This document shows, one piece after another, positions 51,429 through 63,657 of a stretch of 64,000 bases of DNA. Position numbers and translations under genes: made by a program. The notes under the pieces were generated by a model that was given only the letters and a program-made list of their open reading frames with translations, made no database searches and had not been told where the DNA came from. This DNA comes from Tessaracoccus lacteus (lineage in GTDB: Bacteria > Actinomycetota > Actinomycetes > Propionibacteriales > Propionibacteriaceae), in assembly GCF_029917005.1 (NCBI RefSeq), contig NZ_CP123967.1, positions 682,001-746,000 on the forward strand, in the 5' to 3' direction. Positions within the stretch are counted from its first letter, which is position 1. Every line of letters begins with the position of its first letter.

Positions 51429-52025
51429 ATGCATTACGGGGAGCTTGTCGAGCACGACGACATCGAGGGCGAGCGTCGGTCGGGGGTCGACTTCAGCGGC
51501 GCCGATGAGCACGGCCTGAGGATCCTCGACTGCCGGTTCGACGGCGCCCGGCTGAACGGCGCGAAGTTCACGGGCTGCCGGTTCATCGACGTGGTCTTCG
51601 ACGCGGCCGACGCGCCCGATCTCGAGCTGTCGAAGTGTGCACTGCAGGACGTCGCGATCACCGCGTCGCGCCTCGGGGGAGTGCAGGCCTACGCGGGGAC
51701 CTGGACTCGGGTCACGATCGTCGGCGGCAAGGTGGGATACCTCAATCTCCGCTCCGCCAGGCTCGCCCGCGTCCGCTTCGAGGACTGCGCGATAGACGAG
51801 CTGGACCTGTCGCGGGCGCAGGTGGACCGGCTGAGCTTCAGCGGGTGCACCGTCGGCCGGCTGGACCTCAGCAACGCGCGCTGCAGGGACGTGGACCTGA
51901 GCGGCGCGGAGGTCTTGACCCTGGAGTCGAACCCGGAGGGCCTGCGGGGGGTCTCCGTGAGCCACGCGCAGGCACTCGACCTCGCCCCGGGGTTCGCGCG
52001 GATCCTGGGTATGAAGGTGGTCTGA
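51429..52025 (+). CDS. Pentapeptide-repeat protein
   Basis: A 198-residue protein built of A(D/N)LXX-type pentapeptides, which stack into a right-handed beta-helix: VDFSGADEHGLRILDCRFDG, ARLNGAKFTGCRFIDVVFDA, ELDLSRAQVDRLSFSGCTVG, RLDLSNARCRDVDLSGAEVL. Some such proteins mimic DNA and protect gyrase; others have unknown roles, and no evidence here favours either. It has a leaderless start. A dense block of repeats follows. Confidence 0.88.
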   Translation: MHYGELVEHDDIEGERRSGVDFSGADEHGLRILDCRFDGARLNGAKFTGCRFIDVVFDAADAPDLELSKCALQDVAITASRLGGVQAYAGTWTRVTIVGGKVGYLNLRSARLARVRFEDCAIDELDLSRAQVDRLSFSGCTVGRLDLSNARCRDVDLSGAEVLTLESNPEGLRGVSVSHAQALDLAPGFARILGMKVV

Positions 52026-52120
52026 GCCTGCCCCCGGTCGCTGGGCTCACCCCGCCGCCCCCGGCCGCGCGCTCAATCCGCCGCCCCTTTCCGCGCGCTC
52101 AATCCGCCGCCCCATTCCGC

Positions 52121-52189
52121 GCACAACAATGCCTATGTTGGTGCCGCTGCAACATAGGCGCAGCGGCCGCGAAATAGGCATTCTTGTGC
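52121..52189. repeat. Family C repeat, copy 1
   Basis: Outer arms GCACAACAATGCCTAT (52121-52136) and ATAGGCATTCTTGTGC (52174-52189) pair with one mismatch; an inner hairpin CCGCTGC/GCAGCGG (52144-52150, 52160-52166) presents the loop AACATAGGC. The left flank holds three tandem CCGCCGCCCC...CCGCGC units (about 52048-52120). Confidence 0.85.
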
Positions 52190-52224
52190 ACATAATCGGG
52201 CTGGACAAAGGGCGTCGCGGACGA

Positions 52225-52385
52225 CCGGGGAGCCCACCCACAGACGCCACCCTTACCGACGGACGCCACCCTTGTTCGCACATGCCACCGCCATGGCGGT
52301 GGCATGTGTTGAGACGGGTAGCGTCGGTCAAGAAGGGTGGCGTCTGCACGTAAGGGTGGCATCTGCACGTAAGGGGGCGCCGAGG
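52225..52385. repeat. Family B repeat, copy 1, with 30-bp perfect palindrome
   Basis: The centre (52279-52308) is a perfect 30-bp palindrome, CACATGCCACCGCCA plus its complement. Left of it are two GACGCCACCCTT units; right of it are inverted units AGACGGGTAGCGTC, AAGGGTGGCGTCTG and AAGGGTGGCATCTG. The same central palindrome recurs at 63593-63622. The element lies between two family C copies. Confidence 0.88.
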
Positions 52386-52455
52386 ACGGGGCGTCGACGA
52401 CGGCGAGCAGCCCGGTGCTGCGCTTCGTGCACTGAGCCCGCCGCCCCCTTTCCCG

Positions 52456-52524
52456 GCACAACAATGCTTATGCCGGGACCGCTGCAACATAGGTGCAGCA
52501 GACCCGGCATAGGCATTGTTGTGC
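52456..52524. repeat. Family C repeat, copy 2
   Basis: GCACAACAATGCTTATGCCG (52456-52475) pairs with the complement in 52505-52524 over 22 bp including two more bases, with one mismatch. The inner hairpin GCTGC/GCAGC with loop AACATAGGT is in the same direction as in copy 1. The copy ends about 30 bp before the glyQS stop, so it may terminate that gene. Confidence 0.85.
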
Positions 52525-52556
52525 GCGGGAACTGAGCCGGACGAACCGGATGGTCG

Positions 52557-55500
52557 TCAGCCCAGGGCGACGTCCAGCGACTTCCAGTCGACGCCGGCAG
52601 GCGCGAGCGCGAGCACGGAGGCCAGCAGCCCCTGACGCGCGGCGCGGACTTCCGGGTCCTCGGCGTTGACGAGGATGTCGTCGAAGAACCGGGCAGCCGC
52701 GGTGACCACGGGGGTTGTCGCGTCCAGCAGACCCGCGACATCGCCGTCGGCGGTGCCGGCCGGAACGCCCACGACGGCGTCACGTAGCGACATCTCCGCC
52801 GGCTCGGTGAGCTTCGACGCATCGACGGCGACCGGCACGCCCTCCTGCGGGAGGGCCTCGGGCGGCAGGATGCGCGTGATGCGCACCAGCGTGGCGACCA
52901 GGTCGCGGAGTCGCTGGTCATCCTTCGCCTCGGTCAGCTCGCCGAGCACGCGCGCGGCGTACCCGGGGGTGTCGGCGGCGGGCAGGATCGCGGCGACGAG
53001 GTCCGCGGAGGTGCCCTCGTCACGCAACAGCTGCGCGAAGCGGCCGATGGTGAACTCCAGCGCCGAGTCGACGGCGTCGGGCGCCACGTCGATGCCCTGC
53101 TCCGCGAGGCGGTCGACGGCGTCGGTCAGGCCCTCCCGGATGGTCAGCGTTTCGAGCGGGGTGCCGGCGGCCTCGCGGAGGATCCGCACGACGCCGAGCG
53201 CGGCGCGGCGCAGGCCGAACGGGTCGGACGAGCCGGTGGGCTTGGCGCCCAGTGCGAACATGGCGGCGAGCAGGTCGAAGCGGTCGCCCAGAGCCAGGAG
53301 GGCGCCGGGGGTGGATGCTGGCACGGGGTCGGCGGAGGTGTGCGGCTGCTCCATCTCGAACAGCGCGTCGGCGACGGCCTGCGTCTCGCCCATCCGGACG
53401 GCGTACTCACGCGCGATGAACCCGGCGAGCGAACTCATCTCGACGACCATCTGCGTCGCCAGGTCGAACTTCGCCAGCTGACCCGCGCGGGTCAGGGTCG
53501 CGCGCTCGTCGCCTTCGAGCCCGACGCGGTCGGCGAGCTTCTCCGCGACGTCGGCGATGCGGCGGGCGCGCACACCGACGGAGCCGAGGCGCTCCTCGAA
53601 GGTCAGCTTGTCGAGGCCCGGGACGAACTCGTCGGCCCCCTTCGTCTCGAGGTCGGAGTTCCAGAAGAACAGCGCGTCCTCGTAGCGGGCCCGGATGACC
53701 GACTCGTTACCGGTGCGGACGGTGTCGTCGTCGCACAGGCCGTTGGCCATGGTGACGAAGTGCGCGGCGAGCTTCCCGTCGCGGTAGACGGGCAGGTAGC
53801 GCTGGTGCTTGCGCATGACCGTGGTGAGGATCTTCTCGGGCAGCTCCAGGTAGCGCTCGTCGAAGTGACCCAGCACGCCGTGCGGGTCCTCCACCAGGTT
53901 GGTGATCTCGTCGACCAGGGCGCTCTCGCCCTCCAGGTCGACGGTGCCGCCGACGGACTCGGCCAGCGCGGTGGCCCGCTCCTCGACCTGGCCCCGACGC
54001 GCGGCGCTCGCGAGCGTGATCGCGCCGGCCTCGATCGTGCCGAGCAGCCCGCCCGCGGAGGCGACCTCGACGTGGCCGACGAGCGCGCCATCGGCGCGAC
54101 GGCCGGACTCCTCGCCCGCGACCGGGCGCTGCAGGTAGGTGGTGCGGCCGGAGGTCAGCCCGGAGACGCGCACCGGGACGACGACATCGCCCCACAGGAC
54201 GACGAGCCAGCGGATGGCGCGCGAGAAAGACAGGTCGGCGTCGTTCCAGCGCATGTTCTTCTCGGCGCGGAGCCCGGAGACGACCTCGGCGACGATCCCG
54301 CCGACGACCTCGAGCACCCCGCGGCCCTCCAGGGTGGCCTTCACCGCGGCGTGCTCGTTGCCGCCGATCTCGGCCTTGACCACCTGCTCGGCGGTGACGC
54401 CCTGGCCGCGCATGAAGCCCTGCAGTGCCTTGGACGGGTTGCCCTCGGCGTCGAAGGCAGCGGACCACTTCGGCCCCTTGCGCAGCTGCTCGGCGTCGGG
54501 CTCGCTCGCGGCGACGTCCTCGACGACCGCGACGATGCGGCGCGGCGTTCCTTCGACGGTGATCGAACCATGGGTCAGGCGGGTGGCGGCGAGCTTGGCG
54601 GTCAGGGCCTCGCGCACCGCTTCGACGGTCTGGGGAACGACATGCGGCGGCAGCTCCTCGACGCCGATCTCGAGGGCCAGCGTCTGCGGCTGCGCGTCGT
54701 GAGCGACCGCGGGCACGTCGACGACCGGAGCCTCGACGGCGGCCTCCTCGCGCTTCAGCGGGAAGCCGAGCTCCTCGCGGCGCTCGATCCACAGCGCGGC
54801 CGTGTCGCGCATCAGGCGGCGCATGGTGGCGAAGGCCTTGGCCCGCTCGGTGGTCGAGATGGCGCCGCGGGCGTCGAGCACGTTGAATGCGTGGCTCGAC
54901 TTCAGGATGTAGCTGTGGGCCGGGACGGGGAGGCGCTGGGCGACCATGCGCGTCGCCTCGCCGACGTAGGTCTCGTACAGGCGGCGGTTCGCCTCGACGT
55001 CCGCGTCGTCCAGGTAGTAGCGGCTCATCTCGTACTCCTGCTGCCCGAAGGCCTCCCCGTAGGTCACGGGGCGCCCGTCGGCGGCGGTGGCGTAGACGAT
55101 GTCCTTGAAGTGCGTGACGCCCTGCTGTGCCATGAGGATGCGCTCGACGCCGTAGGTGAGTTCGACGGGGATCGGGTCGAGGTTCTGGCCGCCCACCTGC
55201 TGGAAGTAGGTGAACTGCGTGATCTCCATGCCGTCCAGCCACACCTCCCAGCCGAGGCCCCAGGCGCCGATGGCCGGCTGCTGCCAGTTGTCCTCGACGA
55301 AGCGCACGTCGTGCTTGGACAGATCGATGCCCAGCGCCTCCAGCGAGCCGAGGTAGAGCTCCTGCGGGTCGCCCGGCTCGGGCTTCAGGATCACCTGGAA
55401 CTGTGTGTGTGTCTGGAGACGGTTCGGGTTCTCGCCGTAGCGGGAGTCATCGGGGCGGACGGACGGCTCGACGTAGGCGACGTCCCACGGCTCGGGACCG

Positions 55501-55631
55501 AGCACACGCAGCACCGTCGCGGGGTTCATGGTCCCCGCGCCGACCTCCGTGTTGAAGGGCTGCCAGGTCAGGCAGCCTTTCGAGGTCCAGTAGTCGGACA
55601 GTCGTCTCAGAGCGTCTTGCATCGTCAGCAC
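52557..55631 (-). CDS. glyQS: Glycine--tRNA ligase, alpha and beta subunits in one chain
   Basis: A 1024-residue fusion. Residues 1-290 are the GlyQ alpha subunit (class II core): YWTSKGCLTWQPFNTEVGAG, TMNPATVLRVLGPEPWDVAY, WEVWLDGMEITQFTYFQQVG and ELTYGVERILMAQQG. A 25-residue linker leads into the GlyS beta subunit from about 315: LALEIGVEELPPHVVPQTVE, EGTPRRIVAVVEDVA, LPEKILTTVMRKHQRYLPVY and the HD-like/DALR end. Most bacteria with this enzyme type have separate glyQ and glyS. GTG at 55631 is chosen since TAATCT lies six bases upstream; ATG 55622 is an alternative. Confidence 0.95.
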   Translation of the reverse strand: MLTMQDALRRLSDYWTSKGCLTWQPFNTEVGAGTMNPATVLRVLGPEPWDVAYVEPSVRPDDSRYGENPNRLQTHTQFQVILKPEPGDPQELYLGSLEALGIDLSKHDVRFVEDNWQQPAIGAWGLGWEVWLDGMEITQFTYFQQVGGQNLDPIPVELTYGVERILMAQQGVTHFKDIVYATAADGRPVTYGEAFGQQEYEMSRYYLDDADVEANRRLYETYVGEATRMVAQRLPVPAHSYILKSSHAFNVLDARGAISTTERAKAFATMRRLMRDTAALWIERREELGFPLKREEAAVEAPVVDVPAVAHDAQPQTLALEIGVEELPPHVVPQTVEAVREALTAKLAATRLTHGSITVEGTPRRIVAVVEDVAASEPDAEQLRKGPKWSAAFDAEGNPSKALQGFMRGQGVTAEQVVKAEIGGNEHAAVKATLEGRGVLEVVGGIVAEVVSGLRAEKNMRWNDADLSFSRAIRWLVVLWGDVVVPVRVSGLTSGRTTYLQRPVAGEESGRRADGALVGHVEVASAGGLLGTIEAGAITLASAARRGQVEERATALAESVGGTVDLEGESALVDEITNLVEDPHGVLGHFDERYLELPEKILTTVMRKHQRYLPVYRDGKLAAHFVTMANGLCDDDTVRTGNESVIRARYEDALFFWNSDLETKGADEFVPGLDKLTFEERLGSVGVRARRIADVAEKLADRVGLEGDERATLTRAGQLAKFDLATQMVVEMSSLAGFIAREYAVRMGETQAVADALFEMEQPHTSADPVPASTPGALLALGDRFDLLAAMFALGAKPTGSSDPFGLRRAALGVVRILREAAGTPLETLTIREGLTDAVDRLAEQGIDVAPDAVDSALEFTIGRFAQLLRDEGTSADLVAAILPAADTPGYAARVLGELTEAKDDQRLRDLVATLVRITRILPPEALPQEGVPVAVDASKLTEPAEMSLRDAVVGVPAGTADGDVAGLLDATTPVVTAAARFFDDILVNAEDPEVRAARQGLLASVLALAPAGVDWKSLDVALG

Positions 55632-63539: not shown

Positions 63540-63657
63540 CGCCACCCCTATTGACCGACGCCACCCCTATTGACCGACGCCACCCTTGTCGACACATGCC
63601 ACCGCCATGGCGGTGGCATGTGCGAAGAGGGGTGGCGTCTGCGCACAAGGGTGGCGT
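63540..63657. repeat. Family B repeat, copy 2, with 30-bp perfect palindrome
   Basis: Left arm: three GCCACCC(C/T)(A/T)T units (two with GACCGACGCCACCC in front); centre 63593-63622: the same 30-bp palindrome as at 52279-52308; right arm: two inverted units AGGGGTGGCGTC and AAGGGTGGCGT. It lies between menD and the convergent nuclease gene. Confidence 0.88.

Follow-up and report, generated by a model that had tools for sequence, protein, structure and literature searches.

A composite island of two lineage-limited extragenic palindrome families in Tessaracoccus lacteus, inherited with a sister genome and possibly kept as protein-recognition sites

The window analysed here is a stretch of 64,000 nucleotides from Tessaracoccus lacteus, which is part of one 3.05-Mb contig (genome G000). 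In it, the spacer between a pentapeptide-repeat gene and a convergent glyQS-like gene is occupied by a repeat island, in which two direct 69-bp palindromes (family C) flank an inverted array of 19-bp units (family B). This C-B-C arrangement, with two repeat families and tandem units in front, had been proposed in a sequence-only reading of the same DNA, and a repeat search recovered each element where that reading had placed it (Table 1). The two C copies lie in the same orientation and are 81% alike over 80 bp. Within B, the 53-nt arms at 52241-52346 show 81% complementarity, and extra right-hand units extend to about 52375. The 26-bp units repeat the usual left flank of family C, and one further copy of this unit (family D1) precedes C2. 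The name of the glyQS-like gene rests on its translation and on the sequence-only reading, not on a family search; relatives of the gene are present in 38 of 39 Tessaracoccus genomes.

Table 1. Positions of the island, its neighbouring genes and related elements (window coordinates unless marked otherwise)
Feature	Position	Strand	Evidence or remark
Pentapeptide-repeat protein gene, left neighbour, reads into the island	51429..52025	+	Pfam Pentapeptide_4 (E 1.2e-18), Pentapeptide_3, Pentapeptide
Tandem 26-bp units containing CCGCCGCCCC, a duplication of the left flank of C	52040..52121	+	Repeat search, families D1/D3, spacing 26; fewer units in sister G033
Family C copy 1 (C1), 69-bp dyad	52121..52189	+	R1 77.7 bits
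Family B: 19-bp units GACGCCACCCTT, centre TGCCACCGCCATGGCGGTGGCA (52283-52304), then inverted 19-bp units	52241..52375	.	
Family C copy 2 (C2), 69-bp dyad, complementarity reaching 52449-52531	52456..52524	+	R1 89.8 bits, top score of all copies
glyQS-like gene (fused glycyl-tRNA synthetase), right neighbour, reads into the island	52557..55631	-	ORF of 1024 aa
Second family B copy of the window, also in a convergent spacer	63554..63657 (genome 745554-745657)	-	
IS110-type element, copies L327-L332	G000 243476, 1115510, 1556124, 2554838, 2679891, 3033718		

Both families fold far better than their shuffled versions, with z scores of -6.4 to -11.0 for C on either strand and of -10.4 for B; none of 200 shuffles was as good in either case. 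The sequence-only reading had also assigned two alternative folds to C, since the loop AACATAGG (52151) matches the complement of CCTATGTT (52132) in the outer arm. This complementarity was found in copy 1, but neither in copy 2 nor in the family as a whole: CCTATGTT occurs in the arm of one of 65 C copies, and an arm-loop complement of at least 7 nt was observed in five of the 65, against a mean of 3.3 with loops dealt at random. The competing pairing, confined to copy 1, reaches -25.2 as against -39.9, which makes it 14.7 kcal/mol worse. An alternative fold was thus rejected as a feature of family C, being private to copy 1.

A gap-free alignment of 23 copies revealed that C is a dyad of symmetric conserved blocks, with GCACAAnnATGCnTAT at both ends and GCTGCA close to the centre, and that the blocks alternate with free positions (7-8, 13, 17-18 and their mirror places) which are often unpaired. 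The length is exactly 69 bp at 27 of 30 places in G000 and at 38 of 40 in G033, the closest genome compared, whose GlyQS end is 94% identical (79% in the next genome); conserved flanks are common to the copies beyond these 69 bp. Counted as distinct places, C occurs 30 times in G000, 40 times in G033, five times in T. caeni (G012) and once in G020. It was not detected at E ≤ 0.001 in the other 35 of the 39 Tessaracoccus genomes, nor by BLASTN in any of 57 genomes from other genera. When 84,980 species genomes, possibly lacking that of the window itself and its very near relatives, were scanned with an exact pattern, C turned up only in Tessaracoccus caeni (four stretches); such a pattern misses diverged copies, among them the G020 copy, which has a changed base in its right arm. 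Both C and B are dispersed through the genome and intergenic. The distinct spacers that hold C were convergent, tandem and divergent in 8, 13 and 3 cases in G000 and in 9, 15 and 6 cases in G033. C is therefore not biased to convergent spacers, and fits a terminator or boundary role poorly.

Family B is more variable in length. Its units repeat every 19 bp towards the 22-bp centre and are inverted beyond it. All but one of the 25 G000 copies and all but two of the 33 G033 copies have at least two units per side; extra units vary in number. Unit numbers were equal in only 7 of 20 orthologous pairs, indicating that units are gained and lost. The centre was found 25 times in G000 and 33 times in G033; eight other genomes gave one match each with 2-3 mismatches, and these look like chance occurrences in coding sequence. 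Pairs of 19-bp units numbered 75 in G000, 101 in G033, 3 in G030, 4 in G022 and none in the other 35 genomes; outside the sisters G000 and G033, B is essentially absent. Its spacers were convergent, tandem and divergent in 14, 11 and 0 cases in G000 and in 17, 15 and 1 cases in G033. For comparison, the spacers of the window longer than 100 bp, as called by the same rough, home-made gene caller, which may misplace starts, comprised 5 convergent, 8 tandem and 9 divergent ones. The B centre often lies 26-60 bp from a stop codon, placing B at the 3' ends of genes. An inverted array akin to B, in which units GACGCCAACG recur at 19-bp intervals, was also observed adjoining C at 788.0-788.7 kb in G000, 2326.5 kb in G033 and 706.4 kb in G020; this array is a further subfamily of 19-bp units.

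The pentapeptide-glyQS spacer, whose comparison between strains the sequence-only reading had suggested, was followed through other genomes. In G033 it is alike and the C-B-C order is kept, with one extra 19-bp unit on one side of B, fewer on the other side, and fewer front units; what separates the two islands is that 19-bp units of B, 26-bp units in front and short stretches next to C2 were gained or lost. Among 30 loci around glyQS, the pentapeptide gene is convergent in four, and C is present in two of these (G000 and G033). In the remaining two, from more distant genomes (L180 and L183), the convergent gene pair is present, C is absent and the spacer differs, which argues that the island was assembled in the ancestor shared by the two sisters and not by a recurrent event. 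The preserved order in the sister speaks against the proposal that the island is a hot spot for insertion or recombination. That reading had set against itself a spacer identical across species with no repeat copies elsewhere, and half of this was observed: the spacer is kept in the sister, but the repeats are dispersed.

Inheritance extends beyond the island. A partner in a matching spacer of G033 was found for 23 of the 30 C copies (one of these 23 pairs being doubtful, and the other seven copies having no listed partner) and for 20 of the 25 B copies of G000, and 17 of the 40 C places in G033 are unpaired. Since the C pairs were located by means of C itself, strongly decayed orthologues would have been missed. 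No convincing matching spacers were found between the C places of T. caeni and those of G000 or G033, and no clean empty site for C was found; one sister difference ends at the edge of C but swaps in B. The single C of G020 was considered as a sign of deep conservation and rejected, as its surroundings have 87-96% DNA identity to G033, although the GlyQS end of G020 has only 74% protein identity to that of G000. The segment as listed (G020:C1:704861-709622), with 83-96% DNA identity to G033 in a genome that is otherwise distant, was likely transferred together with its C copy.

The rate of change since the split of the two species was determined in 21 of the 23 C pairs, with columns classed from all other copies and the pair itself left out. 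The sisters differ at 19 of 800 positions in conserved columns (2.4%), 46 of 320 in middling ones and 68 of 329 in variable ones (20.7%), and at 14.9% of 2138 bases in the aligned flanks. The 19 differences in conserved columns compare with 73.4 expected, the lowest value in 20000 shuffles being 49; these columns have changed about six times less than the flanks. The same gradient was observed for B in 19 of the 20 pairs, with differences at 14 of 418 positions in the centre (3.3%), 72 of 912 in the unit cores (7.9%) and 85 of 608 in the linkers (14.0%). Since core letters change far more slowly than their surroundings, C and B have the appearance of functional sites recognised by proteins, not that of a hot spot for insertion formed recently. 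Within the G033 island the two C copies are identical at all but one of 69 positions, while those of G000 differ at about a fifth, suggesting that copies within one island can homogenise each other; such homogenisation could slow the divergence of C without selection.

In our judgement the chances are about even that the island, a composite of the two families passed on vertically, has been kept as a set of putative sequence-specific DNA sites. A putative DNA-binding protein would take C either as a duplex dyad or as an extruded hairpin, and a putative protein would read the 19-bp units of B outward from the centre. Coated with protein, C and B together might serve as a boundary that separates converging transcription units, bearing on transcript ends and supercoils. 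The lead candidate for the C-binding protein would be a DUF222 (HNH-like) protein with C just upstream of its genes.

The palindromes might instead act as RNA hairpins, as bidirectional terminators or as stabilisers of mRNA 3' ends. We hold this to be rather unlikely, even though the folds are very stable and B lies just past stop codons and shuns divergent spacers, as described for REPs (PMC3733652). There is no T run, and no terminator-like site was detected in 51900-52700. At gathering score, Rfam returned no RNA family in the window. With relaxed thresholds at four loci, only matches to microRNA models below their gathering scores appeared besides tRNAs, and these were taken as chance. The conservation of letters goes far past the demands of pairing, and few changes are compensatory. 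Pairs changed on both sides numbered 9 in C against a shuffled mean of 8.6, and between the sisters 3 double changes keep a pair, while a change on one side alone loses a pair in 36 cases and gains one in 25. A shuffle of the whole structure was mildly positive (10 of 500 reach the percentage paired and 11 of 500 the covariation score). This pattern is that of a dyad read as sequence more than that of an RNA stem; some weak extra pressure for symmetry or pairing of C is possible, and so is a repair in which one arm corrects the other.

A different explanation starts from the genes that accompany C. One clade of DUF222 genes (Pfam DUF222, E 4.6e-9 to 2.4e-8) has five loci in G000 and six in G033, and C lies 112-168 bp upstream of the start, in the direction of the gene, in 8 of these 11 (5 of 7 when loci are counted once across the sisters); a C in the same direction follows the stop codon in 4 of the 11. 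This makes the DUF222 protein the lead candidate partner. Sister homology at one locus ends exactly at the outer edge of C, with C and a DUF222 gene in G000 and C and B in G033; the downstream end of the DUF222 unit consists of variable repeats with no definable boundary. C might accordingly be the palindrome that partners a nuclease-like protein of the DUF222 (HNH-like, REP13E12-related) kind, a protein which recognises C and once spread either C or the C-gene unit, in a link like that between RAYTs and REPs. We regard this too as doubtful. Seven of the eight upstream copies are alike (1-10 differences; only that at G033 1761534 is unlike them), so that C and gene may have been duplicated as a unit, which would explain most of the link. 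Two clade genes (G000 2466405 and G033 624436) are without C and one more has it downstream only, the majority of C copies lie away from any such gene, and the C-terminal resemblance to HNH lies below the Pfam cut-off (E 0.15; 12.7 bits against 21.4). The other DUF222 genes examined in G000, G033, G020 and G012 had no C either. A general rule of palindromes upstream of DUF222 genes was rejected: 20 genes from seven other Tessaracoccus genomes, 16 of them taken from the strongest matches, had no common hairpin, their upstream regions being by eye mostly coding sequence or tRNA genes, and the link with C is therefore special to one clade. More speculatively, and at a somewhat lower likelihood still, C could be the cognate palindrome of a REP13E12-type DUF222/HNH-like protein in a RAYT-free partnership within Actinomycetota, its solo sites having since been adopted as host binding sites under selection.

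Immediately upstream of the DUF222 genes, conserved TGTGGATAA and GAAAA-TGTC were noted in G000, G033 and G011 (L281). The former resembles a DnaA box, and one L281 site an actinobacterial LexA box. In Mycobacterium tuberculosis, REP13E12 or DUF222-HNH genes are repeated. These and the genes described here are alike in being multi-copy, dispersed DUF222 genes; here, unlike there, one clade has an upstream 69-bp palindrome that also stands solo at many places. If the DUF222 link is true, it would give a first point of entry to a very widespread protein family without a known function, to which the repeated mycobacterial REP13E12 genes (named in PMC10589994) belong.

It would also be possible to regard C and B as now functionless relics of miniature REP/BIME- or MITE-like mobile elements, and the island as a fossil, and their dispersed intergenic copies in local clusters, their patchy spread among the 39 Tessaracoccus genomes (C in 4, B essentially in 2) and the copies found in one species only, such as the 17 unpaired G033 places, would suit this; we consider it improbable, as neutral leftovers should not show conserved columns that change some six times more slowly than their flanks, and none of the four carrier genomes has a RAYT gene. 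Interspersed palindromes are usually regarded as RAYT-driven selfish DNA or junk. Two RAYT-free families that hold their core letters at orthologous sites make a host role of bacterial palindromes testable.

The RAYT genes that accompany REPs are bordered by REPs in inverted orientation (PMC2817692); REP palindromes are described as short (20-40 bp) and as situated for the most part near 3' ends, in spacers of the convergent and unidirectional kinds (PMC3733652). A search for RAYT transposase genes (Y1, PF01797) at E ≤ 0.001 was negative in G000, G033, G012 and G020, with control matches in 5 of 14 genomes. The island resembles REP/BIME in its dispersed extragenic palindromes, composite clusters and lineage limits, in the position of B by gene 3' ends and in having a gene family flanked by a palindrome (C with DUF222). 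It differs in that the carriers lack PF01797, in size (C 69 bp and B about 100 bp or more, as against the 20-40 bp given for REPs, with arms of at least 30 bp), in copy numbers of 25-40 and not over 100, and in that C flanks its gene in direct and not in inverted orientation. Since there is no RAYT and the sizes differ, the island works like REP/BIME in part and is not classed as one. The BOX and RUP elements of pneumococcus (PMC3049150) are likewise modular short intergenic repeats with a variable number of inner units, as in B, and differ in sequence, unit length and host. No published description of C or B was found in the titles and abstracts searched, a scope that covers few subscription papers.

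Mobile elements were also observed near these repeats. An IS110-type element is present in six identical copies (Table 1), each inside a third palindrome family, CCCTTCGAC/AAGCTCAGGG(AACC), at 6 of 6 junctions; this element targets the third family, not C or B. Three of the six lie at most 1.3 kb from a C or B copy. The third family is very common in these genomes, and in the middle part of the DUF222 clade proteins (e.g. L208:899-2914) it is translated in frame as repeats like FPELVEGRRAERGE, indicating that the repeat invaded coding sequence. A Mutator-type (IS256-like) transposase gene is found in two copies among the C clusters of G033 (L146 404741-406009 and L152 2545779-2547047).
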